This document shows, piece by piece, positions 32,488 through 46,790 of a stretch of 64,000 bases of DNA. The notes under the pieces are model-generated. The model did no database searches, was not told where the DNA came from, and worked only from the letters and a program-made list of their open reading frames with translations. Position numbers and translations under genes: made by a program. Numbering within the stretch: the stretch's first letter is position 1; the number at the start of each line of letters is the position of its first letter. This DNA comes from Piscinibacter sp. XHJ-5 (GTDB lineage: Bacteria > Pseudomonadota > Gammaproteobacteria > Burkholderiales > Burkholderiaceae_C): the NCBI RefSeq assembly GCF_029855045.1, contig NZ_CP123228.1, forward strand, positions 5,084,001 through 5,148,000, read 5' to 3'.

Positions 32488-33891
32488 CTACAGCGAGACC
32501 TTTGCCGCCGACCGGGCGCCGGCGAAGTCCAGCACGCGCCCCTTGTTGGCGGCGGCATAGGCCGCGGCCGCATCCTTCTGCAGGAACGCACTGAGCTGCC
32601 CCTTCGCGTCGATCGCGTACCACGCCGTGGGCGCCAGCAGCTTGATGCGGTGGATCAGGTCGTGCACGTACACCGCACGCGCCGCTCCGCCGGCGCGCTC
32701 GATCTTTTGCAGGTCGGCCAGCGAGTTCTCGATGCTGGCGTAATGCCTCACCTTGGGTTCGCCGCGCACCCAGATGCCCGCGGCGCGCTGCACGTCGGCG
32801 ATGGACCTGCCGGTGACCGCGTCGTTGGCCTTCAGCGGCAGCTTGTCGCGCTGGGCCAGACGCGCCTCGTAGCTCAGGCCCGATTGCTTGAAGGCCGCAC
32901 GGATGTACTGGTCGTCGACGAAGGTGTCGGCGTTGAGCGTCGAATCGCGGCCCATCAGCTTCAGCGTCTCGATGGAAGTCCTGAGCGCCTGCCGGTACTC
33001 CGGCTTCCAGGTGAAGTCGCGCGTCTGCAGGCCCAGCGGCCCGTGATAGAGATAGTTCACCGCAGCATCGATGCCAGTCACTTTCTCGATCAGCTCGCTG
33101 TACTTCTCGGGCTCTGCGGCGATCAGCCGATCGGCCTCCAGCGCCGCGCGCAGGAAGGCAATCACGATCTCGGGATGCTTGCGCGCGTATTCGGCGTTGA
33201 CCAGCGAACCGTGGTAGGTCGGGGTGTTCGCCTGCGAGCCGTCGTAGATCTTGCGCGCGATCCCGCGGTGCTCGAAGAGCTCGGCGAATGGCACGAAGTC
33301 GGCGTGCGCCTCGATCTTGCCGGCCTGCAGCGCCGGGCCTGCGACCTCCGGCGCCTGGGTGATGATGTTCACGTCCTTCTGCGGGTCCCAGCCCTGCGCA
33401 GCCACCGCGCGCAGCAGCATGCCGTGCGCCGTGGAGGCGAAGGGCACCGAGATCGTGCGGCCCTTCAGTTCCGACAGCAGCGTGACCTTCGAGTCGCGGG
33501 GCACCACGATGCCGTTGCCGCTGCCCAGCGTGCTGCCCGACAGCACGGTGATGAACAGGCTCTGCTTGCCGGCCTTGAGGAAGGCAGCGCCGTTGTTGGA
33601 GCCCGGGAAGTCGGCCATCGAGCCGATGTCGAGCTTGTCGGCCACCATCTCGTTGGTCAGCGGCGCACCGGAAGTGAAGTTCTTCCACTGGATGTCGTAG
33701 GTGACGTCCTTGTACTTTCCGTCGCGCGGCAGGTACTTCTCCAGCAGCTTCAGCTCGCGGATCAGCAGGCCGCCGGTGGCGCAGTTGATCGTGGTGTCCT
33801 GCGTGCCGATGGCCACGCGGATGGTTTCGGCCTGCGCGCCGGCCAGCGCGCCGGCGAGCAGCAAGGCGCTCAAGGGCTTGATGAGGTTCAC
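32488..33891 (-). CDS. NitT/TauT-type substrate-binding protein with a NosL-like C-terminal domain
   Basis: A 467-residue exported protein starting at GTG 33891, with signal peptide LSALLLAGALAGAQA/E. Residues about 25-320 form a NitT/TauT-type binding protein (ETIRVAIGTQDTTINCATGG, WKNFTSGAPLTNEMVADKLD, IGSMADFPGSNNGAAFL). Usual members end near residue 340. Here about 120 more residues follow whose end (ARAVYVHDLIHRIKLLAPTA, WYAIDAKGQLSAFLQKDAAA, AANKGRVLDF) resembles NosL, the copper-binding accessory lipoprotein of nitrous oxide reductase (YVHDY...A.YV......G..AF....AA..FA...GG.VL.F). The NosL metal-binding methionine is not evident. The fusion suggests that ligand capture is tied to a metal or sulfur ligand; this assignment is by eye. 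Confidence 0.8.
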   Translation of the reverse strand: MNLIKPLSALLLAGALAGAQAETIRVAIGTQDTTINCATGGLLIRELKLLEKYLPRDGKYKDVTYDIQWKNFTSGAPLTNEMVADKLDIGSMADFPGSNNGAAFLKAGKQSLFITVLSGSTLGSGNGIVVPRDSKVTLLSELKGRTISVPFASTAHGMLLRAVAAQGWDPQKDVNIITQAPEVAGPALQAGKIEAHADFVPFAELFEHRGIARKIYDGSQANTPTYHGSLVNAEYARKHPEIVIAFLRAALEADRLIAAEPEKYSELIEKVTGIDAAVNYLYHGPLGLQTRDFTWKPEYRQALRTSIETLKLMGRDSTLNADTFVDDQYIRAAFKQSGLSYEARLAQRDKLPLKANDAVTGRSIADVQRAAGIWVRGEPKVRHYASIENSLADLQKIERAGGAARAVYVHDLIHRIKLLAPTAWYAIDAKGQLSAFLQKDAAAAYAAANKGRVLDFAGARSAAKVSL

Positions 33892-33911
33892 GGTCTCTCT
33901 CCGGTTGTCGT

Positions 33912-34157
33912 CTATCGCAGCAGGTAGGGAATGTCGACGTGCACGGCGCCGGTCGGGCAGTCCTTCTCGCAGGGCATGCAGTACCAGCACTCGTCGAACT
34001 TCATGTAGGCCGACCCCTTGACGAGATCGATGGCGAGCACGTCCAGCGGACAGACGTCGACGCAGACGGTGCAGCCCTTGTCGGCGATGCACTTGTCGGC
34101 ATCGACCGTGACGGGAACGGCGCTGGGGTGGAAGGCGAGGGGCGCGAGGATCTGCAT
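33912..34157 (-). CDS. AprB-like 2[4Fe-4S] ferredoxin
   Basis: An 81-residue ferredoxin with two four-cysteine motifs: ADKCIADKGCTVCVDVCPLD and DECWYCMPCEKDCPTGAVHV. The second motif, with E-C-W-x-C-x-x-C-x-x-x-CP-x-x-A, closely follows the pattern of AprB, the electron-transfer subunit of adenylylsulfate reductase. The C-terminal extension of AprB that wraps around AprA is missing (AprB is about 150 residues). Its gene follows the AprA-like flavoprotein gene by 23 bases, so the two proteins probably form an electron-transfer pair in the cytoplasm. The start MQIL at 34157 is used; MTST at 34184 would overlap the upstream stop. Confidence 0.88.
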   Translation of the reverse strand: MQILAPLAFHPSAVPVTVDADKCIADKGCTVCVDVCPLDVLAIDLVKGSAYMKFDECWYCMPCEKDCPTGAVHVDIPYLLR

Positions 34158-34180
34158 GCGCGTTTCTCCTGTCGTTGAGG

Positions 34181-35917
34181 TCATGCGGGGACGGCGCCCA
34201 GCGGAGTCGCGATGCGCAGGCGCCGGTAGGCGTCGCGCTCGGTGTCGGCGACGGGAACGATGTAGGGCTCGATCGGGCGCTTGAAACTCTGCATCTCGCC
34301 GCGTTCGCCCTTTTTCAGCTGGGCGTGGCAGAACCACTCGGCGTCGTTGCGCTCTGGAAAGTCGACGCGCGCGTGATACAGCCCCCAGCGGCTTTCGGTG
34401 CGGTACAGCGACGCGCGCGCCGCCATCTCGGCGCAGTCGCGGATCGCATGTACCTCGAGGGCACGCATCAGCTCATGGGGCTCGCTCGCCTTGAGCCGTT
34501 CCAGGTCCTCGCGGATGGCCTCGAAGCGCTCCAGTCCGATCTCCATCTTGCGCGTGACCTTCGGCGGCTGGAGGTAGTCGTTGACCATGCGGCGCAGCTT
34601 GTATTCGACCTGGTTGGGCGGCAGGCCGTCTTCGCGCTGCAGCGGCGCCCAGACGCGCGCACGCTCCTGCTCGACCTGCGCGCCGTCCAGCGGCGCAAAG
34701 TCGTGCGCCTGACAGAACTCCGCGCTGCTCTCGCCCGCCAGGCGGCCATACACGAAGGCGCCCAGCATGTAGTTGTGCGGCACGCAGGCCATGTCGCCGG
34801 CGGCGTGGAGCCCGGGCACGGTCGTCTGCGCGTGCTCGTCGACCCACACGCCGGACGCCGAATGGCCGCTGCACAGGCCGATCTCGGAGATGTGCATTTC
34901 CACCATGCGCTCGCGGTAGTCGGTGCCGCGCCCGGCGTGGAAGCGGCCGCGGCTGGGCCGTTCGTTGGTGTGCAGGATCGTCTCGATCGTCGAGATCGTC
35001 TCTTCGGCCAAGTGGTCGAGCTTGAGAAACACCGGGCCCTTGCCGCCGTGCAGCTCCTGGTGGAATTCCCACATCATCTGGCCGCTCCAGTAGTCGCACT
35101 CGATGAAGCGCTGCCCCGCCGCGTTGGTGGTGTAGCCGCCGAAGGGGCCGGTGACGTAGGCGCAGGCCGGCCCGTTGTAGTCCTTGATCAGCGGGTTGAT
35201 CTGGAAGCACTCGATGCCCGAGAGCTCGGCGCCGGCGTGATACGCCATGGCGTAGCCGTCGCCTGAGTTGGTCGGGTTCTCGTAGGTGCCGAAGAGGTAG
35301 CCCGAAGCCGGCAGGCCCAGGCGCCCTGCCGCGCCGCAACTCAGCACCACGGCCTTGGCCCGGATGACGTGGAAGTCGGCGGTGCGGCAGTCGAAGCCCA
35401 TCACGCCCGCGATGCGCCCGTCGTCGCCGGTGAGCAGGCGCGTCGCCACCAGCCGGTTGGTGATCTCCACCCGTGCCCGCTTCAGCTGGCGGTACAGCAC
35501 CTTCTTGATGTCGTGCCCCTCGGGCATGGGGAGCACGTAGCTGCCCATGTGGTGCACCTTCTTCACGGCGTAGTCGCCGGTCTCGTCCTTCTCGAAGCGA
35601 ACGCCCCAGCGGTCCAGCTCCTCGATCATCGCGAAGCTGTTCGCTGCGTAGGCCATCACCGTCTTCTGATTGACGATGCCGTCGTTCGCGATGGTGATCT
35701 CGCGCACGTACTGCTCCGGCGTCGCGTGGCCGGGAATGACGGCGTTGTTCAGCCCGTCCATGCCCATGGAGATGGCGCCGCTGCGCTTGACGTTGGCTTT
35801 GTCCAGCAGCAGCACGCGCAAGGCGGGGTTTGCCTGCTTCGCCTTCACGGCGGCCATGGGGCCGGCCGTGCCGCCGCCGACCACGACAACATCGAACTCA
35901 TGCTCGAAGGTCTGCAT
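34181..35917 (-). CDS. AprA-like FAD-dependent oxidoreductase (fumarate reductase/adenylylsulfate reductase family)
   Basis: A 578-residue flavoprotein of the succinate dehydrogenase/fumarate reductase/AprA superfamily. The FAD dinucleotide motif FDVVVVGGGTAGPMAAVKAK is at residues 8-27, followed by LLLDKANVKRSGAISMGMDG, which is the hallmark loop of adenylylsulfate reductase alpha chains (EKANxKRSGAVAMG). Further landmarks are CGAAGRLGLPASGYLFGTYE, NPTNSGDGYAMAYHAGAEL, GLHAAGDMACVPHNYMLGAF and the C-terminal helical domain. Paired with the AprB-like ferredoxin it should carry out a two-electron redox step on a sulfur oxyanion or organosulfur compound. No sulfate adenylyltransferase or dissimilatory sulfite reductase is in the window. 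It starts one base after the gntR stop. Confidence 0.88.
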   Translation of the reverse strand: MQTFEHEFDVVVVGGGTAGPMAAVKAKQANPALRVLLLDKANVKRSGAISMGMDGLNNAVIPGHATPEQYVREITIANDGIVNQKTVMAYAANSFAMIEELDRWGVRFEKDETGDYAVKKVHHMGSYVLPMPEGHDIKKVLYRQLKRARVEITNRLVATRLLTGDDGRIAGVMGFDCRTADFHVIRAKAVVLSCGAAGRLGLPASGYLFGTYENPTNSGDGYAMAYHAGAELSGIECFQINPLIKDYNGPACAYVTGPFGGYTTNAAGQRFIECDYWSGQMMWEFHQELHGGKGPVFLKLDHLAEETISTIETILHTNERPSRGRFHAGRGTDYRERMVEMHISEIGLCSGHSASGVWVDEHAQTTVPGLHAAGDMACVPHNYMLGAFVYGRLAGESSAEFCQAHDFAPLDGAQVEQERARVWAPLQREDGLPPNQVEYKLRRMVNDYLQPPKVTRKMEIGLERFEAIREDLERLKASEPHELMRALEVHAIRDCAEMAARASLYRTESRWGLYHARVDFPERNDAEWFCHAQLKKGERGEMQSFKRPIEPYIVPVADTERDAYRRLRIATPLGAVPA

Positions 35918-35918
35918 G

Positions 35919-36680
35919 TCAGGCGTCCTGATGGCGTTGGCGGTCGACGCGCAGCCGGTACTGGAACGTGTCGGCGCGGAAGTAGAGGAACTCGAAGTCG
36001 ATCGGCCTGTGATGGGTGTCGTGCGTCAGTCGCTCGATGCGCATCACCGGCGCGCCCTCGCCGATGCGCAGGGCCGCGGCCATCTGCGCGTCTGCCAGCG
36101 TGGCGTCGATCTTCAGATCGGCATGGCCGAGCGGCAGGGCGCACTCGTTTTCGATGATGAGAAAGATGTCGCGTGTGAGCAGATCGGCCTGGGCGAGCTT
36201 GCGCCCCAGCGGCGCCGGCACGTAGGTGAGCTCCAGCGACACCGGTTCCCGGTCGAGCAGGCGCACGCGGCGGATCTCGGTCACCGCCGCACCCTCTGCC
36301 ATTTGCAGACGCTGAGCCACCTGCGCGTCCGCCGCGATGAAGCGCAGGTCGAGCAGCTGGTTGACCACCTCGTGGCCCATCGCCGACATCGACTCGGCGA
36401 ATCCCATCAGGCTGCTGACGTTCTGGAACGCCTTGGGCCGCGAGACGAAGCTGCCCTTGCCCTGCAACGTGTAGATGAGCCCTTCGCGCTGCAGATCTGC
36501 CATCGCCTGGCGCACCGTGATGCGGCTGACGCCGAAGCTCGCGCCCAGCTCGCTCTCGGAGGGCAGCTGCGACAGCGGCGCGCAGCTGCCGTCGAGGATG
36601 CGCGCACGCAGCGTGTTCTTGATCTGCGCGTGCAGCGGGCCACTGGGCAATGGGATCAGCTCGGCGGTGTTCGACTTCAT
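35919..36680 (-). CDS. GntR/HutC-family transcriptional regulator
   Basis: A 253-residue regulator: N-terminal GntR winged helix (IKNTLRARILDGSCAPLSQL, PSESELGASFGVSRITVRQA, LQREGLIYTLQGKGSFVSRP) and a C-terminal UTRA effector domain (LDREPVSLELTYVPAPLG; EGAPVMRIERLTHDTHHRPI). It is the first gene of the nine-gene operon, one base ahead of the flavoprotein gene, so it very probably controls the operon and itself. A perfect 13-base palindrome lies 52 bases upstream. ATG 36680 is used; a GTG two codons upstream is also possible. Confidence 0.92.
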   Translation of the reverse strand: MKSNTAELIPLPSGPLHAQIKNTLRARILDGSCAPLSQLPSESELGASFGVSRITVRQAMADLQREGLIYTLQGKGSFVSRPKAFQNVSSLMGFAESMSAMGHEVVNQLLDLRFIAADAQVAQRLQMAEGAAVTEIRRVRLLDREPVSLELTYVPAPLGRKLAQADLLTRDIFLIIENECALPLGHADLKIDATLADAQMAAALRIGEGAPVMRIERLTHDTHHRPIDFEFLYFRADTFQYRLRVDRQRHQDA

Positions 36681-36731
36681 CGGCACGACTTGTTATGACG
36701 AGTGGCCGGGAGCGTAGCCATGGGGCTTCCG

Positions 36732-36744
36732 CTTGTTAAACAAG
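36732..36744. promoter_or_regulatory. Perfect palindrome, probable operator of the GntR-led operon
   Basis: CTTGTT-A-AACAAG, with six-base arms about a central A, lies in the divergent region between gntR (minus) and the desaturase gene (plus). A related imperfect half site (CTTGTTATGACGAG) covers the gntR start side near 36690. HutC-type GntR proteins bind dyads of this size. A second short palindrome (ATATCGATAT, 36753-36762) lies next to it and may belong to the promoter. Confidence 0.55.
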
Positions 36745-36839
36745 ATCGCCGCATATCGATATCGGGTCATCGCCCCGCATAAGCAACCGCTCATTGCTTC
36801 GTTGGCTTCGGCTGCGGTGGCGGGTACGGTCTGGCCACC

Positions 36840-37751: not shown

Positions 37752-38548
37752 GCGACTGCTGTGCATCGCTGCCGATGTACGACGTCGATCGCGACGCGGT
37801 GCAAGCCTGGTGGCGCTGCCTCGCCCGCGCCATGCGCGCCGAAGGGCTCGCGGGAGTGCCATCGCGGGTCGAATGGCCGCAAGATCTGAACGCGCACTGG
37901 CGCGACCCCACGCTGCTGCTGAGCCAGGCGTGCGGATACCCGCTGGTCACAGGGCTCGCGGATGCGGTCGAGGTCGTCGGCGCATTCCGCTATGCAGCAC
38001 CGGGCTGCGAGGGCATTGACTACCGTAGCGAGCTGGTGGCGCGGGAGCAGGACGCCAGCCGGGGTATCGAGCACTTCCGCGGGCGCGTGGCAGCGTTCAA
38101 CGCGCGCGGGTCCCACTCGGGATGCAACGCGCTGCGCGCGCTGGTGGCGCCGCTGGCGGACCGAGGACGGTTCTTCTCCCGCGCGGTCCGATCGGGATCG
38201 CATCGCGAATCCATCGCGCTGGTTCGGGACGGGCACGCCGACATCGCTGCGGTCGACTGCGTCAGCCTGGCTCTTTTCAGACTGCACGCACCCGAGCTGC
38301 TGAAGGGACTGCGCATTGTCGGCAGCACGGCGGCCGCGCCGGGCTTGCCGCTGGTGACATCGCGCCGCCGGCCGCCGGACGAGGTGCAAGCGCTGCGACG
38401 TGCGTTGATCGCCGCCTGTACCGAGCCTGCCTTCGATGGACAGCGCGAAGCGCTCCTCATCGAAGGATTCGAAGCGGCTGCAGCGCCTTGCTGGGATCGC
38501 ATCGACCTGATGCGTCGCGCCGGCGAGGCGCTGGTCGACTTCGACTGA
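37748..38548 (+). CDS. PhnD-like phosphate/phosphonate binding-protein family member without signal peptide
   Basis: A 266-residue protein of the PhnD/PBP2 class: ASLPMYDVDRDAVQAWWRCL at the N-terminus, LLLSQACGYPLVTGLADAVE, AFNARGSHSGCNALRALVAP, and GHADIAAVDCVSLALF. PhnD proteins are normally exported, but this one starts directly with the domain and has no signal peptide, so it should stay in the cytoplasm. A missing upstream start is unlikely because the ATG overlaps the desaturase stop. It may act as a cytoplasmic ligand sensor or a degenerate enzyme-like binding protein. No phosphonate transporter is adjacent. Confidence 0.8.
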   Translation: MSDCCASLPMYDVDRDAVQAWWRCLARAMRAEGLAGVPSRVEWPQDLNAHWRDPTLLLSQACGYPLVTGLADAVEVVGAFRYAAPGCEGIDYRSELVAREQDASRGIEHFRGRVAAFNARGSHSGCNALRALVAPLADRGRFFSRAVRSGSHRESIALVRDGHADIAAVDCVSLALFRLHAPELLKGLRIVGSTAAAPGLPLVTSRRRPPDEVQALRRALIAACTEPAFDGQREALLIEGFEAAAAPCWDRIDLMRRAGEALVDFD

Positions 38549-38644
38549 TCGGGCTCGGGCCGCGCTGGCGGCTGCTTCGCCGGACAACCAGCACGAGGCA
38601 GATAAGCAAGCGCGATTTCGTTCGTTTCCCGTACGCATTGGCGT

Positions 38645-38675
38645 CTATAGCCTTCATCCCGAAATCGAAAGGAAC
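38645..38675 (+). promoter_or_regulatory. Promoter/leader region of the encapsulin-associated rhodanese gene
   Basis: The bases before the rhodanese ATG contain CTATAGCC (38645-38652) and a good ribosome-binding site (AAAGGAA). The TATAGCC sequence is repeated as part of a perfect palindrome upstream of the encapsulin gene (40432-40443), which hints at shared control of the two transcription units. No -35 element can be named with confidence. Confidence 0.3.
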
Positions 38676-38680
38676 GACCC

Positions 38681-39148
38681 ATGACTGCCCTGCTTGTCGA
38701 ACTGCCCCGCCCGAGCGTCCTGGAGGAAGCACGCTCGCTTGCACGCGAAGCCAAGCTGCCCTATTCGGGCGGCGTGGCACCGGCCGACGCATGGGCGCTG
38801 GCCCGCAGCGGCCAGGCGGTGCTGGTGGACGTGCGCTCCGCCGAGGAGCGCACATTCGTGGGTCGCGTGCCCGACAGCCTGCACGTGCCCTGGGCGACCG
38901 GCACGAGCCTGACGCGCAATCCGCGCTTCGTGCGCGAGCTGGAGGCCAAGGTAGGCAAGCAGGCCATCGTGCTGCTGCTGTGCCGCAGCGGCAAGCGCTC
39001 GGCACTTGCCGCCGAGGCGGCGACCAAGGCCGGCTTCCAGAGCGTCTTCAATGTGCTCGAGGGCTTCGAAGGCGAGCTCGATGCGCAGCAGCAGCGTGGC
39101 CACTTCGACGGCTGGCGTCATCGCGGCCTGCCGTGGGCACAAGACTGA
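38681..39148 (+). CDS. Single-domain rhodanese of the encapsulin locus
   Basis: A 155-residue rhodanese: AVLVDVRSAEERTFVGRVPD, the catalytic cysteine in LLLCRSGKRSALAA, and AGFQSVFNVLEGFEGELD. The CRSGKRS loop is typical of single-domain thiosulfate sulfurtransferases. Rhodaneses, serine acetyltransferase and cysteine desulfurase are recurrent neighbours of family 2A encapsulins, and here they share one strand in the order rhodanese, cysE, XRE, encapsulin, desulfurase. It probably moves sulfane sulfur between the desulfurase or the stored sulfur and cellular acceptors. Confidence 0.9.
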   Translation: MTALLVELPRPSVLEEARSLAREAKLPYSGGVAPADAWALARSGQAVLVDVRSAEERTFVGRVPDSLHVPWATGTSLTRNPRFVRELEAKVGKQAIVLLLCRSGKRSALAAEAATKAGFQSVFNVLEGFEGELDAQQQRGHFDGWRHRGLPWAQD

Positions 39149-39256
39149 ACAAGCAGTGGGCGGCGCACTGCCGCTTTGAAGGCGCTCGCTGCCCAAGGTC
39201 CACGGAGGCCTTGCGTGGCCTTGGAAACCGCCGCGAAACGACAAACGGGGGGATTC

Positions 39257-40171
39257 ATGAGCCTGTTCGAGCTGGACGACGTGGTGGCCGGTCTGCGGGA
39301 GGCGCGCGAGTGCTGGCGCAGCGCGCAGCAGCGGCCGCTGGAGCTGGCCGTGCGCGAGCTGCCCGACCGCGCTCAGGTCGCGGAGGCGGTGGACGCCTTG
39401 AGCTCGGCGCTGTTCCCGCTGCGGCTCGGACCGCCGCAGCTCAATCGCGAGGGCGAGGACTTCTTCGTCGGCCACACGCTGGACCTCGCGCTGCACACGC
39501 TGCGCGCGCAGGTACAGCTGGAGCTGCAGTACGCTGCCCGGCTCGATGGCCGCCGTGCGGATGATCTCGATGCACGGGCCAAGGCGATCGTGCGGCAATT
39601 CGCGCAGGGGCTGCCCGGCATCCGCGAGCTGCTCGACACCGATGTCCTCGCGGCCTACCGCGGCGACCCGGCCGCGCGCAGCGTCGACGAGGTGCTGCTG
39701 TGCTATCCCGGCATCACGGCGGTGATCCACCACCGCCTCGCGCACCGCTTGTACAGCCTGGAGCTTCCGCTGCTGGCGCGCATCGTCGCCGAGCTGGCTC
39801 ATGCGCGAACGGGCATCGACATCCATCCAGGCGCTCGCATCGGCGCGGGCTTCTTCATCGATCACGGCACGGGCGTCGTCATCGGCGAAACCGCGGTGAT
39901 CGGCGAGCGCGTGCGCCTGTATCAGGCGGTGACGCTGGGCGCGAAGCGCTTTCCGGCCGACGACAACGGCGAGCTGCGCAAGGGTTTGCCGCGTCATCCG
40001 ATCGTCGAGGACGATGTGGTCATCTACGCCGGCGCGACCATCCTCGGCCGTGTGACGATCGGCCGCGGCTCGACGATCGGCGGCAACGTGTGGCTCACGC
40101 ACAGCGTGCCTGCGGGCAGCCACGTGACCCAGGCGAGCACCCAGCAGCGAGCGGATGAGGTTGCTGCATGA
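39257..40171 (+). CDS. cysE: Serine O-acetyltransferase (EpsC/CysE type)
   Basis: A 304-residue acetyltransferase, starting at 39257 behind a GGGGGG ribosome-binding site. An alpha-helical N-terminal domain of about 170 residues precedes the left-handed beta-helix (IDIHPGARIGAGFFIDHGTG, VVIGETAVIGERVRLYQAVT, LGAKRFPADDNGELRKGLPR, IVEDDVVIYAGATILGRVTI), with the catalytic histidine in IDHGTG. It makes O-acetylserine, the carbon acceptor for cysteine synthesis and the usual inducer of sulfur-starvation regulators. Its gene overlaps the XRE regulator gene (ATGA) and lies next to the encapsulin, where cysteine is the substrate of the encapsulated desulfurase. Confidence 0.93.
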   Translation: MSLFELDDVVAGLREARECWRSAQQRPLELAVRELPDRAQVAEAVDALSSALFPLRLGPPQLNREGEDFFVGHTLDLALHTLRAQVQLELQYAARLDGRRADDLDARAKAIVRQFAQGLPGIRELLDTDVLAAYRGDPAARSVDEVLLCYPGITAVIHHRLAHRLYSLELPLLARIVAELAHARTGIDIHPGARIGAGFFIDHGTGVVIGETAVIGERVRLYQAVTLGAKRFPADDNGELRKGLPRHPIVEDDVVIYAGATILGRVTIGRGSTIGGNVWLTHSVPAGSHVTQASTQQRADEVAA

Positions 40172-40407
40172 CCGGCATCGGCGGGCGCTTCGGGCGCACG
40201 GTGCGCGAGTTGCGCGAGGCCCAGGGCTGGTCGCAGGAGCATCTCGCCGCGCTGGCCGAGCTCAATCGCACGTACCTCGGCGACGTCGAGCGCGGCAACG
40301 CGATGCCGTCGCTCGACACCGCGGCCAAGCTCGCGCGTGCCTTGCGCGTGGGTCTTGGCGCGCTGCTCGAGCGCTGCGAGCAGCAATCGACTGCGTCGAT
40401 CGCCTGA
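40168..40407 (+). CDS. Small XRE-family DNA-binding regulator
   Basis: A 79-residue protein that is almost only a lambda-repressor-type helix-turn-helix: FGRTVRELREAQGWSQEHLA, AELNRTYLGDVERGNAMPSL, DTAAKLARALRVGLGALLER. The gene overlaps the cysE stop by four bases and ends 116 bases before the encapsulin start, with a perfect palindrome in that gap. It is therefore a good candidate for the local regulator of the encapsulin gene. No effector domain is present, so it would respond through another partner or act by its own level. Confidence 0.88.
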   Translation: MTGIGGRFGRTVRELREAQGWSQEHLAALAELNRTYLGDVERGNAMPSLDTAAKLARALRVGLGALLERCEQQSTASIA

Positions 40408-40431
40408 GCGCGCGCAGCTCGCACTCCATGA

Positions 40432-40443
40432 CGGCTATAGCCG
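40432..40443. promoter_or_regulatory. Perfect 12-base palindrome upstream of the encapsulin gene
   Basis: CGGCTATAGCCG, a perfect palindrome, 80 bases before the encapsulin ATG and directly after the XRE regulator gene. Small XRE proteins bind short palindromes of this kind. The TATAGCC half also occurs before the rhodanese gene. A second feature in this gap, TCATATCCATATTCG at about 40486-40500, is AT-rich and could be the -10 or a sulfur-regulator site. The ribosome-binding site is AGGAG. Confidence 0.45.
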
Positions 40444-40523
40444 GTTGAAGGCGCCGCTGCGCTCGCGCAGACTCCCTCGGCTTTCTCATATCCATATTCG
40501 CTTTCCTTCGATCAGGAGTCTCC

Positions 40524-41453
40524 ATGGCGGACATCGCGACCGCGCAATTGGCCCTCGGCGACAACGCCGCACGACAACTTGCCAATGCCACCAAGACGGC
40601 GCCGACGCTGTCGACCATCAGCCCGCGCTGGCTGACGCATCTGCTGCAGTGGGTGCCGGTGGAAGCCGGCATCTACCGGCTCAACAAGGTGCGCAATCCG
40701 CAGGACGTGCAGGTGCTGTGCGCCAAGCGCGACGAGTCGGAGCTGCCGAGCACCTTCGTCGACTACGAGGAACAGCCGCGCGAGTACTTCCTCAACGCGG
40801 TGAGCGCAGTGCTGGACGTGCACACCCGCGTGTCGGACCTCTACAGCAGCCCGCACGACCAGATCAAGGAGCAGCTGCGCCTGACGATCGAGACGATCAA
40901 GGAGACGCAGGAAAGCCAGCTCATCAACAACCCCGACTACGGGTTGCTGGCCAGCGTCGCACCCGAGCAGATCATCTACCCGCTGACCGGCGCGCCAACG
41001 CCCGATGACTTCGACGAGCTGCTGACCAAGGTGTGGAAGGAGCCGGCTTTCTTCCTGACGCACCCACTGGCCATCGCCGCCTTCGGTCGCGAGTGCACAC
41101 GGCGCGGTGTGCCGCCGCCGACCGTGAGCATGTTCGGCTCGCAGTTCCTCACCTGGCGCGGCATTCCGCTCGTGCCGTCGGACAAGGTGCCGGTGGCCGA
41201 CGGCAAGACCAAGGTCCTGCTGATGCGCGTGGGCGACAAGCGCCAGGGGGTCGTCGGCCTGTTCCAGCCCGGTCTGCCGGGCGAGCAGGGCCCGGGCCTG
41301 TCGGTGCGCTTCATGGGAATCAGCCGCAACGCGATCGCGTCGTACCTGATTTCACTCTACTGCTCGCTGGCCGTGCAGACCGACGATGCGCTGGCCGTGC
41401 TCGAGGACGTGGAGGTCGGCAAGTACCACGACTATCCGGACACCTACAAGTGA
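40524..41453 (+). CDS. Family 2A encapsulin shell protein (SrpI-like)
   Basis: A 309-residue protein matching the family 2A encapsulin (SrpI) shell, of HK97-type fold. Characteristic segments are LALGDNAARQLANATKTAPT at the N-terminal arm, ISPRWLTHLLQWVPVEAGIY, VLCAKRDESELPSTFVDYEE, EYFLNAVSAVLDVHTRVSDL, LINNPDYGLLASVAPEQIIY, and SRNAIASYLISLYCSLAVQT. There is no cyclic-nucleotide-binding insertion, which separates it from family 2B. Sixty copies are expected to assemble into a T=1 nanocompartment in the cytoplasm that loads the cysteine desulfurase encoded eight bases downstream. Family 2A shells from Synechococcus and Acinetobacter have been linked to sulfur starvation and elemental sulfur storage. 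Confidence 0.95.
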   Translation: MADIATAQLALGDNAARQLANATKTAPTLSTISPRWLTHLLQWVPVEAGIYRLNKVRNPQDVQVLCAKRDESELPSTFVDYEEQPREYFLNAVSAVLDVHTRVSDLYSSPHDQIKEQLRLTIETIKETQESQLINNPDYGLLASVAPEQIIYPLTGAPTPDDFDELLTKVWKEPAFFLTHPLAIAAFGRECTRRGVPPPTVSMFGSQFLTWRGIPLVPSDKVPVADGKTKVLLMRVGDKRQGVVGLFQPGLPGEQGPGLSVRFMGISRNAIASYLISLYCSLAVQTDDALAVLEDVEVGKYHDYPDTYK

Positions 41454-41461
41454 CGCCGTCC

Positions 41462-43177
41462 ATGCCGACGCCTGACCTTCTGAACCCGGCACCGCCGACG
41501 GGGCTGCCAGACCCGGCCGTGCTGGCGCGGCTCGCCGGCGATTTCTTCGCGGCCATGCCCGGCTCGCCAGGCATCGCCGCGGCGGGCGGCGTGCCGCTGC
41601 CGGCCAACCCACAGCCACCCGGGATGTCGCCGCCGCCCGGCGCACTCGGACCTTCGACACCGTCCGCCGTGCCAGTCGGTGCGTTGCCGCCCGGCGCGAA
41701 CCTGCTGCCGCAATCGCCGCAAACGGCCGCCAACGGCTTCGCCTCGGCGCCATCGTTGTGGCCGCATGCAGTGGCGCCCAACGGCGTGCCCGACCTGCTG
41801 CTCGGTGCCGCGCCCGGCTACGACGGACGCCTCGGCAGCCACGCACTGGCCGCGCGGCACCCGGCGAGTGCGCCGTCCTTCTACTTCTTGTCGGAAGCAT
41901 CCGCGGCACACACGGGCGAAGGCCCCCGCTACAGCGTCGAGCGAGCCGCCGCGCAGCCGCCTTTCGATCTGCAGGCCATCCGCCGTGACTTCCCCATCCT
42001 GCGCGAGCGCGTCAACGGCCGGCCGCTCGTGTGGTTCGACAACGCGGCGACGACGCAGAAGCCGCAGGCGGTGATCGACCGACTTTCGCGCTTCTACTCG
42101 CACGAGAACTCGAACATCCATCGCGCCGCGCACGAACTCGCCGCGCGCGCAACCGATGCCTACGAAGGCGCACGCGAGTCGGTGAGGCGCTTCATCAACG
42201 CACGCGCAGTCGAGGAAATCGTGTTCGTGCGCGGCACCACCGAGGCCATCAACCTCGTGGCCAAGAGCTGGGGTGCGCAGAACATCCGCGAAGGTGACGA
42301 GATCGTCGTCTCGCATCTGGAGCACCACGCCAACATCGTGCCCTGGCAGCAGTTGTGTGCCGAGAAGGGCGCGACGCTGCGTGTGATCCCGGTCGATGAC
42401 AGCGGGCAGGTGCGTCTCGACGAATACCAGCGCCTGCTCAGCGAGCGCACGAAGCTGGTTGCGGTGACGCAGGTGTCCAATGCGCTGGGCACGGTGGTGC
42501 CGGTGAAGGAGATCGTCGCGCTGGCGCATCGCGCTGGCGCGAAGGCCCTCGTCGACGGGGCGCAGTCGGTATCGCATATGCGCGTGGACGTGCAGTCGCT
42601 CGATGCCGACTTCTTCGTGTTCTCCGGACACAAGATCTTCGGCCCCACCGGTATCGGCGCGCTCTACGGCAAGAGGGCGATCCTGGAGGAGATGCCTCCC
42701 TGGCAAGGCGGCGGCAACATGATCGCGGACGTGACCTTCGAGCGCACCGCCTATCACGGCGCACCGGCGCGCTTCGAAGCGGGCACCGGCAATATCGCTG
42801 ACGCGGTGGGCCTGGGTGCCGCGCTCGAATACGTGGAACGCATCGGCATCGAGGCCATCGGCCAGTACGAGCACGCACTGCTCGACTACGCGACGCAGCG
42901 CATGACGCCCATCGCGGGACTGCGCCTGGTCGGCACCGCCCGGGACAAGGCCAGCGTGCTGTCCTTCGTGCTCGAAGGCCATGCCACCGACGAGGTCGGC
43001 CGGGCACTCAACGAGGAAGGCATCGCAGTGCGCACCGGTCACCACTGTGCGCAGCCGATCCTGCGCCGCTTCGGCCTGGAGACCACGGTGCGGCCGTCGC
43101 TCGCCTTCTACAACACCTGCGAGGAGGTCGATCGGATGGTGGCTGTGGTCAGCGCTCTGGCACGCTCACGCCGCTGA
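41462..43177 (+). CDS. Encapsulated cysteine desulfurase (SufS-type) with disordered cargo-loading N-terminus
   Basis: A 571-residue protein. The C-terminal 400 residues are a group II, SufS-type cysteine desulfurase: FDNAATTQKPQAVIDRLSRF, THAT-like region NALGTVVPVKEIVALAHRAG, the PLP-binding lysine in VFSGHKIFGPTG (about residue 391), and the catalytic cysteine in VRTGHHCAQPIL (about residue 529). The first 165 residues are rich in Pro, Ala and Gly, predicted disordered, with short conserved islands (LPDPAVLARLAGDFFAAMPG; GVPDLLLG; PSFYFLSE). This is the layout of family 2A encapsulin cargo, in which that region is needed for loading. It releases sulfur from cysteine inside the shell. The gene is directly downstream of the shell gene. 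Confidence 0.95.
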   Translation: MPTPDLLNPAPPTGLPDPAVLARLAGDFFAAMPGSPGIAAAGGVPLPANPQPPGMSPPPGALGPSTPSAVPVGALPPGANLLPQSPQTAANGFASAPSLWPHAVAPNGVPDLLLGAAPGYDGRLGSHALAARHPASAPSFYFLSEASAAHTGEGPRYSVERAAAQPPFDLQAIRRDFPILRERVNGRPLVWFDNAATTQKPQAVIDRLSRFYSHENSNIHRAAHELAARATDAYEGARESVRRFINARAVEEIVFVRGTTEAINLVAKSWGAQNIREGDEIVVSHLEHHANIVPWQQLCAEKGATLRVIPVDDSGQVRLDEYQRLLSERTKLVAVTQVSNALGTVVPVKEIVALAHRAGAKALVDGAQSVSHMRVDVQSLDADFFVFSGHKIFGPTGIGALYGKRAILEEMPPWQGGGNMIADVTFERTAYHGAPARFEAGTGNIADAVGLGAALEYVERIGIEAIGQYEHALLDYATQRMTPIAGLRLVGTARDKASVLSFVLEGHATDEVGRALNEEGIAVRTGHHCAQPILRRFGLETTVRPSLAFYNTCEEVDRMVAVVSALARSRR

Positions 43178-43273
43178 GGCGTACCCGATGATGGAAGCAT
43201 CGCGCTGGCGGTCGCGTCCTTGCTCATCTTGTGGATCACGCCGCGCTGGAGCTACCGGCCGAGCGGCGCATGA
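43178..43273 (+). pseudogene. Possible membrane-protein tail after the desulfurase gene
   Basis: Directly after, and in frame with, the desulfurase stop, 31 codons read SIALAVASLLILWITPRWSY followed by RPSGA and a TGA at 43271-43273. The sequence looks like the last membrane helix of a transporter. There is no start and no further helix, so it is at best a remnant. It could be chance; the hydrophobic run is the only support. Confidence 0.25.
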
Positions 43274-43288
43274 CCACGGATCGTCTCG

Positions 43289-44122
43289 TCAGAACGGCCG
43301 ATCGCCGAGGATCGTGGCGCGGTGCATCACCCGGCGGTGCGGCAGGTAGTCTGCGGTGGCGTAGTGCTGCGTCAGACGGTTGTCCCAGAACGCGAGATCG
43401 TGCGGCTTCCAGCGCCAGCGCACCGTGAACTCGGGCCTGGCGGCGTGCCGCGTCAGCAGGCCCAGCAGCGCGTCGCTCTCCGCCTTGTCGAGCTCCACGA
43501 TGCGGCTGGTGAAGCCCTCGTTGACGAACAGACCACGCCGACCGCTCGCAGGGTGCGTTCGCACCACCGGGTGCCGCACGGGCGGGTGCTTGTCCCGCGC
43601 CGCCTCCCAGCGCATGCGTTCCTGGGGCGTGCGCGCGAAGCGCCAGGCCGGGAAGGACTGCAGGAAGTCGTGCTCCGCATGCAGGGGGTCGATGAAGGCG
43701 CGCAGCGGCGCGGACAGGGCTTCATAGGCCGCGATCCCGCTGGACCACAGGGTGTCCCCGCCCAGCGGCGGCAGCAGCTGCGCCGATAGCAATGCCCCCA
43801 TCGGCGGTGTCTCGATGAAGGTGACGTCGGTGTGCCAGTTGTCGTTGTCCGGCGGATTGTCCAGGCTGGTGTCCAGCAGGATGATCTCCGGCACGTCGGG
43901 GTGCTGCGGATAGACCGGGTGGATGTGCAGGTCGCCGAAACGCGCCGCGAAGTCGCGCTGCTGTCGCGCAGTGACCGGTTGATTCTCGAAGAACAGCACG
44001 TGATGCTTCAGCAGCGCGGCATGCAAGGCTTCGCGGTCGTCCTCGTGCAGCGGTCGCGTCAGCGTCAGCCCGCTGACGATGGCGCCAATGACCGGGCCCA
44101 GGGGTTCGATCTGCAAAGCCAT
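43289..44122 (-). CDS. tauD: Taurine dioxygenase (TauD)
   Basis: A 277-residue Fe(II)/2-oxoglutarate dioxygenase: N-terminus [20 protein letters not shown], iron ligands in [15 protein letters not shown] and in the C-terminal [10 protein letters not shown] with the nearby 2-oxoglutarate arginine, plus [20 protein letters not shown]. The intact C-terminus contrasts with the frameshifted paralogue at 21281. It hydroxylates taurine or a related alkanesulfonate, releasing sulfite and an aldehyde. It is the last gene of a minus-strand tauABCD operon (46790 to 43289), two bases after tauC. Confidence 0.93.
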
Positions 44123-44124
44123 GG

Positions 44125-44988
44125 TCAGGCGCGGCCCTTCCAGGGCACCAGTTGACTTTCGATCCGACGCATCAGCAGGTCGAACAGCCAGGCCACCGTG
44201 CCGATGACCAGGATGCCCATCACGACGATGTCGGTGCGCAGGAAGTTGGACGCATTCAGCACCATCTGACCCAGGCCGAGCGAGGCCGCCACCATCTCGG
44301 CCGCCACCAGCGTGGTCCAGCCGAAGCCGATCGCGATGCGCATGCCGACCAGGATGTCCGGCAGCGCGGCGGGCAGGATGACGTGCCGCACCACCTGCCA
44401 GCGGCTGGCCCCCATGGAGGCGGCGGCCTGCAGCTGCTCGGCCGATGCGCCGCGCATGCCCGCGCGGGCGGCCAGGGCCAGCGGGGCGAAGCAGCTCAGG
44501 TAGATCAGCAGCACCTTCGGCGCCTCGTCGATGCCCAGCCAGATGATGATCAGCGGCAGGTACGACAGCGGCGGCAGCGGCCGGTAGAACTCCAGCGGCG
44601 GATCGGCAATGCCCCGCACCACGCGCGACATGCCCATCGCGATCCCCAGCGGCACCGCAGTGACGCAGGCGAGCCCGAAGGCCGAGAACACGCGCCAGAG
44701 GCTGGCCGCGAGGTGCTGCCACAGCGGCTTGTCGTTGGCGCGGCCCGAGAGGTAGTCGATGAACTGCGCAGCCACGGCCTGCGGCGAAGGCAGGAAAAGC
44801 GGCTTGACCCAACCCGCGTTCGTCACCACGAACCACAGCAGCAGGAGCGCCAGCACCGTGCCCAGGCTGATGCCGGCGCTGGGCCCCTCGCCGGGCGCAC
44901 CGAAGGCGCTCGTGCGAGGCGGGGCGGCGGGCACGCCCGGCGACGCCGCGCCGAGTGGCGCTTCGGACAGCGCGCGGACCTCAGACAT
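44125..44988 (-). CDS. tauC: Taurine-type ABC transporter permease
   Basis: A 287-residue inner-membrane permease with a proline/alanine-rich soluble N-terminus of about 35 residues, about six helices, the EAA coupling loop ([20 protein letters not shown]) and the [20 protein letters not shown] segment shared by TauC/SsuC proteins. The ATG at 44988 overlaps the tauB stop by eight bases; a GTG at 45000 is a longer alternative. It forms the importer with TauA and TauB. Confidence 0.92.
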
Positions 44989-45769
44989 GCGCCGGCTCAC
45001 GCTGATGGATGAGGCCCAGCACCTCCTCGCGCAACGCGATGAACCCGGGCGACGATTTTTCGCGCCGGGCGTCGCCGTGCTGCAGGAAGCGGCGCGAGAA
45101 AGGCAGGTCGTCGAAATGCCGCACGATGCGCCCCGGCCGCGGGCTCATCACGACCAGCCGTGTGCCGAGGAACAGGGCTTCCTCGACCGAGTGCGTGATG
45201 AAGAACACCATGCTGCGCGCCCCGGCCCAGGCACGCAGCAAGGTCTCCTGGACCGTTTCGCGGGTGAAGGCGTCGAGCCCGCCCATCGGCTCGTCCATCA
45301 GCAGCACGGCCGGATCGTTGGCCAGCGCGCGCGCGATGCCGACGCGCTGCTGCATGCCGCCCGACAGTTCCCACACCGCGCGATCGCCCTGGCCGGCCAG
45401 CCCGACGAGCGCCAGCTTCTCGTCCGCCAGAAGCTCGCGCGCGGTGCGCTCGACGCCGCGCAGCCGCAAGCCCAGCGCCACGTTGTCGCGCACGTTCAGC
45501 CATGGCATCAGCGCGTGCTTCTGGAACACCACGCCGCGCTCGGCGCCCGGACCGGTGACCGGCTGACCGTCGAGCAGCACCTGGCCGTCCGTGGGCGGCA
45601 GAAAGCCGGCGATGCAGTTCAGCAGCGTGGTCTTGCCGCATCCCGACGCACCGACCGCAACGACGAAGTCGTCGTCCTGCATGGACAGGTTCAAGGGCGC
45701 CAGGGCCTGGAGGCGGCCGCCGGGAACGGCGTAATGCACGGTCACCGCGCGGATCTCGAGGGTGCGCAT
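44981..45769 (-). CDS. tauB: Taurine-type ABC transporter ATPase
   Basis: A 262-residue ATPase: Walker [38 protein letters not shown], signature [15 protein letters not shown], Walker [16 protein letters not shown], and the switch histidine in [13 protein letters not shown]. The V-Y-A-V/P-G-G-x-x-x-ALAPLNL N-terminus matches TauB. It lies between tauA (ten-base gap) and tauC (overlap). Confidence 0.94.
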
Positions 45770-45779
45770 CGGGAGATGC

Positions 45780-46790
45780 CTAGTTGGCGAGCGCCTTCTC
45801 GATGTACTGCGTCGTCACGAAGCCCCGGTAGTCCGCCTTCACCTCCTGCACGCGGCCCTGCTCCTTCAGGAACACCGCCGTGTTGGCCAGCGCCTTCGCG
45901 GCGCCGCCGCCCAGCCACGTCGGCGAAAGCTGCTCCTGCAGCGACGGGAAGCGGTACAGCGCGATGGCGGCCGGCACGTCCTTCGGGTCGGCCTTGCTCC
46001 ACTTGGCGATCGCCTTGATCTGCGGCGTCTCGGCGGTCCACCTCGCGCCCTGGGTGCGGTAGGTCTCGTCGGCGCGCGCCAGCGCCTTCACCAACGCGAC
46101 AAGGAACGACTCATGCTGCGCCGCCCATTTCGCATTGACGATCAGGCCGTCGAAGGTGGGATGGCCCTGCTTGCCGATGGCGCCGGACGTGGCGATGACC
46201 TTGCCGCCGGCCTTGGCCCTGGACAGCGCCGGATCCCAGACGAAGGTGGCGTCGATGTCGCCGCGCTCCCAGGCGGCCGCGATCTCGGGCGGCCGCAGGT
46301 TCAGCACGTTGACGTCCTTCGGGTCCACACCTTCCTGCTTCAGGCCCACCAGGAGCTGGTAGTGCGAGGTGGAGACGAACGGCGTCGCCACCTTCTTGCC
46401 CTTGAGGTCCTTCCAGCCATTGATGCCGCTGCCGTTGCGCGCCACCAGCGCCTCGGCGTCGGCGATGTCGTCCAGGATCCAGAACAGACGGACGTCCTGG
46501 CCCTGGCTGGCCGCAGCGGCGATGGGGCTGGACCCCGCTTCGCCGATTTGCACTTCGCCCGAGGCCATCGCACGGATGACATCGCCGCCGCCGCCGAACT
46601 GGCGCCAGTTGATCTTGTAGCCGGTGCTCCTCTCCAGTTCCCCCGACTCGATGAGGGTGCGCAACGGCACCAGCATGTCCTGATAGGCGAAGGTCACCTC
46701 CTTGGTCTGGGCCATCAGGGCGGTGGACACCAGCAGCGTCGAAGCCGCAAACAAGCGCGCAAGCGAGGACAGGATCGAACGGGAGGTCAT
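45780..46790 (-). CDS. tauA: Taurine ABC transporter substrate-binding protein
   Basis: A 336-residue periplasmic binding protein with signal peptide ending STALMAQ. TauA landmarks: [80 protein letters not shown], and [20 protein letters not shown]. It captures taurine or similar sulfonates for TauBC and is the first gene of the operon. Together with TauD it gives a second complete sulfonate system besides that at 21281-24835. Confidence 0.94.

Follow-up and report, generated by a model that had tools for sequence, protein, structure and literature searches.

A family 2A encapsulin locus of Piscinibacter sp. XHJ-5 with a small XRE protein as a probable C-protein-like switch for the shell

In this study, we analyzed a locus for a family 2A encapsulin, a small XRE regulator encoded within it and the palindrome that probably serves as its operator in Piscinibacter sp. 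XHJ-5. The window, meaning the whole stretch of DNA that was analyzed, comprises 64,000 nucleotides (contig NZ_CP123228.1, positions 5,084,001 to 5,148,000 of the forward strand); all positions given below are those of the window. Five genes on the plus strand make up the locus: a rhodanese-domain sulfurtransferase of 155 residues (38681..39148; PF00581), a CysE/EpsC-like serine O-acetyltransferase of 304 residues (39257..40171), an XRE/C-protein-like regulator of 79 residues (40168..40407), the encapsulin shell of 309 residues (40524..41453) and the cargo cysteine desulfurase of 571 residues (41462..43177). Coordinates, Pfam domains and scores on curated profiles confirmed the five-gene family 2A encapsulin/desulfurase locus of the original prediction. 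The serine acetyltransferase reached 169 bits on NF041874 (cut-off 150) and, in the profile search, 169 bits on TIGR01172, below the cut-off of 210.65.

The shell scored 530 bits on the family 2A model NF041162 (cut-off 380), in agreement with its earlier assignment. It also exceeded the cut-off of the 2B model NF041163 (411.5 versus 400 bits), with a score lower than that on the 2A model and with its best stretch covering the shell part of the 2B model only. The sole Pfam content is PF19307 at residues 59-299 of 309, and the absence of a cyclic-nucleotide (cNMP)-binding domain places the protein in 2A, not 2B. The closest solved shell by sequence is PDB 8t6r (E 1.4e-170), collinear over residues 6-309, and the genome holds one shell match. 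The cargo scored 917 bits on NF041166 (cut-off 800). Its SufS-type desulfurase domain spans residues 167-567, so that the N-terminal extension of about 165 residues described earlier is real; blocks within it are partly conserved among 68 aligned cargo proteins, that of the window included. Passages of PMC12407261 state a role in sulfur storage for cysteine desulfurase cargo. The original prediction had regarded a rhodanese and a serine acetyltransferase beside the shell as less usual, which does not hold: they are the commonest accessory genes, named in passages of PMC8346489 as those most enriched in family 2A encapsulin operons. Four of the five genes are as already published, and the regulator is the new part.

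The regulator gene shares 4 bp with the end of cysE (ATGA overlap), and its product shows the helix-turn-helix (HTH) domain as its only Pfam content (PF01381, PF13560), which bears out the earlier description of an XRE protein overlapping cysE. In a phmmer search against the PDB, C.BclI came first (E 1.6e-10), followed by C.AhdI (E 5.5e-10); C.Esp1396I (3clc) gave E 0.011 only. The genome encodes one XRE protein of this kind, the next best match having 36% identity (E 8.6e-8). Among 67 aligned XRE proteins, the recognition region N-R-[ST]-[YF]-x-G-[ED]-x-E-R is almost invariant. A C-terminal cysteine (LLERCE) is present in the window's protein and kept in 37 of the 67, which would suit a protein that senses sulfane sulfur or redox state via this residue and switches the shell accordingly. 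We regard such sensing as quite improbable, since 30 of the 67 proteins are without that cysteine, 16 are cysteine-free and no Pfam domain other than the HTH was found. At least 27 of the 30 keep the operator described below, because 63 of 66 loci keep it. The thiol-sensor idea was dropped on the conservation of the cysteine.

In the gap before the shell gene, the palindrome CGGCTATAGCCG is exact at 40432-40443, as had been predicted. This perfect 12-bp core lies within the predicted XRE operator ATGACGGCTATAGCCGGTTGA (40428..40448, plus strand). For comparison with relatives, the 400 bp before the shell were used from the best 80 of 575 confirmed loci and from 41 non-duplicate loci of the order, class and phylum; five duplicate loci had been removed before the count of 121, and gene starts in relatives were projected from those of the window through the BLAST match. 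A site was scored where at most 4 mismatches to the window's 16-mer CGGCTATAGCCGGTTG occurred within 250 bp of the shell. Such a site precedes the shell in 63 of 66 loci with XRE versus 3 of 55 without it (Fisher p 1e-26, kinship not corrected for). Without the 250-bp limit, matches were found in 4 of the 55 XRE-less loci and in 32 of 1320 shuffled sequences. In the 63 loci the site lies at −78 to −117, with one exception at −230, and one further XRE-containing locus (L039) has a degraded site with 5 mismatches.

The three XRE-less loci with a site all belong to Rubrivivax (L003, L004, L010), and their genomes hold a 67-70% identical XRE gene beside cysE elsewhere. In one of the three, the XRE, cysE and rhodanese genes are on the same contig as the shell, some 11-13 kb from it and in opposite orientation; in the Rubrivivax locus L146, the shell keeps its XRE site with rhodanese, cysE and XRE inverted about 11-13 kb off on the same contig. 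For the other 52 XRE-less loci, 44 genomes were searched (L109, L136, L139, L147, L150, L151 and L152 were left out): 42 were without an XRE protein at E<=1e-10, and two had one of 42% identity. The XRE-less locus L020 gave weak XRE matches only (best E 5e-7).

Alignment of the 63 promoters on the site revealed two peaks of conservation with little information between them. The first is ttGaYGKCTATAGCMKGTTGA, in which GTTGA occurs in 63 of 63, and the second is a GAHAMT-like hexamer. If these are read as the −35 and −10 of a sigma-70-type promoter, the window has a predicted −35 hexamer TTGAAG (40445..40450, plus strand) and, 17 bp after it, a predicted weak −10 hexamer CAGACT (40468..40473, plus strand), and the dyad centre falls at −42.5. 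Taking the best −10 of each promoter, 52 have a spacer of 17 bp and 11 have one of 18 bp. Many have a poor −10, which reads GACACT in 21 of 63. A generic sigma-70 scan of 38500-43400 found no promoter, therefore the call of the shell promoter rests on the alignment.

The five-gene order of the window was found, complete and in order, in 58 of the 66 XRE-containing loci, with XRE between cysE and the shell and no restriction-modification genes in the order. The other four genes occur in the same order in 31 of the 55 XRE-less loci. In XRE-less loci, the gap between cysE and the shell has a median of 58 bp (n=45), so these loci appear mostly without room for a separate shell promoter. With XRE present, the gap from cysE to XRE has a median of −1 (n=61) and that from XRE to the shell a median of 114 bp (n=66). 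Because the shell stands close after cysE without XRE and behind a wider gap with it, the XRE gene and promoter look like an insert by which one operon is divided into two transcription units. The best tree of 122 shells requires 20 changes in XRE presence, with the three Rubrivivax rows scored by genome. Five loci of Zoogloea and kin (L056, L062, L065, L068, L072) keep XRE and the shell site with no cysE match in the locus; XRE may for this reason be tied more to the shell than to cysE. Two further loci (L025, L130) have a cysteine synthase gene (cysK), read by eye, between rhodanese and cysE, and in five others (L007, L011, L033, L045, L146) a gap of about cysK size at this place possibly holds the same gene.

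A second copy of the palindrome, absent from the original prediction, lies before the rhodanese gene. This XRE operator-like site, TTGGCGTCTATAGCCTTCAT (38638..38657, plus strand), differs from the symmetric consensus at 5 of 20 positions and stands where the rhodanese-cysE-XRE operon probably has its −10/start region. The count covers 99 rows: those with a rhodanese match and 120 bases or more, together with the window and L146, which were both taken as XRE-containing. With up to 7 mismatches to TTGATGGCTATAGCCATCAA, a site was found in 37 of 66 rows with XRE versus 3 of 33 without (Fisher p 4e-6), and in 26 of 990 shuffles; one of the three (L150) was sliced wrongly, its locus starting too near the gene. 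In another XRE-less locus, L044 of Rhizobacter, rhodanese is preceded by a good operator-like site (mismatches at 4 of 20 positions) in a genome with no XRE match, perhaps as a relic of recent XRE loss. The distance from TTNGTT to the site was obtained for 30 XRE-containing rows, seven of the 37 being left out owing to a shorter stretch or no upstream TTNGTT: 18 rows have 41-45, six have 35, the window has 21 and five have other values. Judged by eye, the rhodanese site appears to lie over or just after the −10, which would be a place for repression.

The position of both sites also allows XRE to be regarded as a repressor of the shell promoter, covering the −35 and keeping shell and cargo off until it is lost, diluted or modified. 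The GTTGA of the −35 is part of the right half-site, the start region of the XRE operon carries a second site, and many small XRE proteins are repressors. We nevertheless find this unlikely. A centre at −42.5 resembles the sites of sigma-contacting XRE activators, as for lambda cI at OR2 near −42. The poor −10 of many shell promoters is what would be expected of activator-dependent promoters, and the lack of room for a separate shell promoter in most XRE-less relatives also argues against a repressor. In the C proteins, the high-affinity site (OL) recruits sigma, according to passages of PMC4041747. Activation of the shell promoter by XRE is hence the reading that we prefer.

Upstream of the rhodanese operon, a scan with a position weight matrix, positive in 87 of 98 rhodanese promoters with and without XRE, detected a candidate sulfur-responsive element, ATAAGCAA-N-TTCGTT (38602..38626, plus strand), which we take to be of CysB/SsuR type. 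With a matrix built from the promoters to which it was applied, the element was found in 59 of 65 rhodanese promoters with XRE and 27 of 33 without (the wrongly sliced L150 being scored as a miss); at an equal score, 1 of 490 shuffles had it. The window's own genome contains three exact matches and one near match to the pattern, and the reversed control none. One match lies before this operon, one at 36779-36803 in the gap that separates a GntR gene from a divergent desaturase gene, and one precedes a sulfate-binding-protein gene by about 60 bp; the near match is located where a second GntR gene elsewhere in the genome ends (L159). These results bear on the earlier proposal that O-acetylserine supply and shell production are coupled under a local regulator. 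Its regulatory part, the pairing of XRE and palindrome, has strong comparative backing. Simple coupling needs refining, because the rhodanese-cysE-XRE operon has a CysB-like element kept with or without XRE, and because the near-universal XRE site is that of shell and cargo, the rhodanese site being present only in part of the XRE-containing rows.

To judge how specific the site is, its patterns were also searched in whole genomes. The 6.65 Mb genome of the window has the 11-mer core YGKCTATAGCM at four distinct sites, compared with 22 for the reversed control; two of the four precede the two transcription units of this module, and the other two look like background by eye. In the same genome, the 16-mer pattern with two mismatches allowed gave 36 matches versus 105 in the reversed control. 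The significance of the palindrome is its placement and conservation, not its frequency. A strict pattern, YGKCKATAGCMNGTTGA, was searched in 39 of the 66 XRE-containing genomes and found exactly once in 35 and not at all in 4, with 2 matches in the reversed control. A wider XRE regulon was dropped on this result. In a draw of 399 genomes from the order, the strict pattern occurred in 19, once each; 12 matches lay at shell promoters among 15 XRE-containing genomes, and none was found in 24 XRE-less encapsulin genomes. Left out of the loci fetched from relatives were G240, which is under the family cut-off, and the phylum matches G788, G893, G900 and G1006, which cover the model from about position 50 onward only.

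That the palindrome is the site of another factor, or simply a conserved promoter, with XRE as an unrelated passenger, appears very improbable. XRE and the promoter are neighbors, binding of XRE to the palindrome is deduced from comparison, and the site of L044 stands in a genome without XRE, all of which would fit a passenger. Against this, the motif follows XRE even where XRE is located elsewhere in the genome, recurs at the second promoter mainly in loci with XRE and is missing in XRE-less loci where the operon is otherwise kept. The pairing of XRE with its site is strongly supported by these comparisons, and from them we infer binding, activation and repression.

We consider it probable that the locus makes a sulfur-handling encapsulin with the small XRE protein as its dedicated C-protein-like switch. 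The DNA itself displays the pairing of XRE and site, the single strict site in most XRE-containing genomes searched and the geometry of the promoter. The steps of the proposed mechanism are as follows. Upon a change in sulfur supply, a presumed CysB-type regulator would turn on rhodanese, cysE and XRE, and XRE would be made, probably by translational coupling to CysE. An XRE dimer would then bind the single palindrome centred at −42.5 and recruit RNA polymerase to the shell promoter with its poor −10. Shell and cargo desulfurase would thereby be co-made, presumably later than the cysteine-supply enzyme, and through the related site where the rhodanese operon starts, XRE would restrain its own synthesis.

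Several observations weigh against this interpretation. Well-supported branches of the tree force 4 independent XRE changes, and the motif follows in 3.9 of 4 on average, a number that cannot reach significance. The XRE gene and the shell site are adjacent, so that one deletion removes both, and the linkage is broken by the Rubrivivax cases and the rhodanese site only. In two loci with a divergent XRE (L055, L122), no site was found before the shell. The invariance of GTTGA arises partly by selection, GTTG being included in the 16-mer used for picking and the A not. The window's own −10 is poor, and a site that extends into the −35 could serve repression as well. Many XRE-containing rows (Janthinobacterium, Zoogloea) are without the rhodanese site, and its spacing is variable. 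In the order draw, the 19 strict matches compare with 22 in the reversed control by our count, thus the pattern is not enriched overall, and 7 of the 19 are off-locus; the notable point is that the other 12 are all at this one promoter. Because there is no excess over the reversed control, a lone strict match carries little weight, and the argument is one of placement. Six of the seven off-locus matches are in genomes without an encapsulin match and one is in G239, about 48 kb from the shell; within 4.7-10.5 kb around each of the seven, no rhodanese, cysE, XRE, shell or cargo was found at E<=1e-3.

A more far-reaching idea, which we put forward tentatively and hold to be less probable than its opposite, is that a controller switch of the restriction-modification type was recruited to time organelle assembly. 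Sulfur starvation would first bring about rhodanese, CysE and XRE, and the build-up of XRE would turn shell and desulfurase on and its own operon off, whereby the building of the sulfur compartment would be ordered and perhaps all-or-none. The XRE gene and its operator-promoter (~350 bp) might then be a cassette, repeatedly gained or lost, that turns a single operon into a two-step circuit. The families of both the HK97-fold shell and the XRE switch have viral or mobile-element roots. In our judgement, the switching-on of encapsulins in bacteria is poorly understood. One small protein, one site and one promoter are directly testable in many harmless species, with XRE-less relatives as natural controls. 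If the proposed switch holds true, a controller of the restriction-modification type would set the timing of a protein organelle's production, and it would offer a compact element with which encapsulins can be induced on demand.

It is also rather unlikely, in our view, that the locus is an ordinary family 2A encapsulin locus with nothing beyond published operon descriptions. Shell, cargo, rhodanese and serine acetyltransferase are indeed as published; against the ordinary view stand the strong pairing and the literature searched, in which no description of this regulator and site was found. The search combined encapsulin with XRE/HTH, CysB or rhodanese and serine acetyltransferase, and gave no account of this regulator, subscription journals being outside its scope. 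The main text of PMC8346489 does not mention XRE, HTH or helix-turn-helix, and in passages of PMC8987985, XRE factors and encapsulins are discussed apart from each other, as components taken over from mobile elements and viruses. For SrpI of Synechococcus elongatus, induction on sulfate starvation is reported in the SrpI paper; its text does not contain the word 'regulator', and CysR is found in the reference list only.

Directly downstream of the cargo gene, taurine-type uptake and cleavage genes are located on the minus strand (43289-46790): a TauD dioxygenase, an ATP-binding cassette (ABC) permease, an ATPase and a binding protein, of which permease and ATPase score under the cut-offs of the taurine models. 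Because of these genes, the encapsulin stands in a sulfur-acquisition region. Further upstream, at 32488-36803, a GntR regulator, a fumarate-reductase-like flavoprotein, a probable ferredoxin open reading frame (by eye) and a sulfonate-type ABC binding-protein-like gene are grouped.

Among known systems, other family 2A encapsulins (SrpI, PDB 6x8m; the MMP-I shells, 8t6r and 8wol) have the same shell and cargo families with an unannotated N-terminal cargo extension, and the same accessory rhodanese and serine acetyltransferase. Unlike in these systems, the XRE gene and its site here separate the shell-cargo unit from rhodanese and cysE. Lambda cI at OR2 is similar to the predicted XRE site in having its operator centre near −42 beside the −35 of the activated promoter; unlike lambda cI, the 79-residue XRE protein is without a C-terminal oligomerisation or cleavage domain. 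With the C proteins (C.AhdI, C.BclI, C.Esp1396I) it shares size, HTH-only build and probable self-control, and with C.AhdI and C.BclI the recognition-helix pattern R-[ST]-Y ... V-E-R-G. According to passages of PMC4041747, C-protein dimers centre between A and T of TATA; sigma is recruited at a high-affinity site, and transcription is afterwards switched off through a second, weaker one. The C-protein dyad in TATA corresponds to CTA|TAG here, although the site core is GGCTATAGCC, unlike the GACT/AGTC boxes quoted for C proteins. In contrast to these, XRE is tied to a metabolic compartment, without a restriction enzyme, and instead of tandem OL/OR operators there is one separate site per promoter, with no second conserved block in the aligned shell promoters. 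As restriction-modification genes and tandem operators are defining features of C proteins, we do not call the XRE protein one, and suggest by analogy that it works like one.

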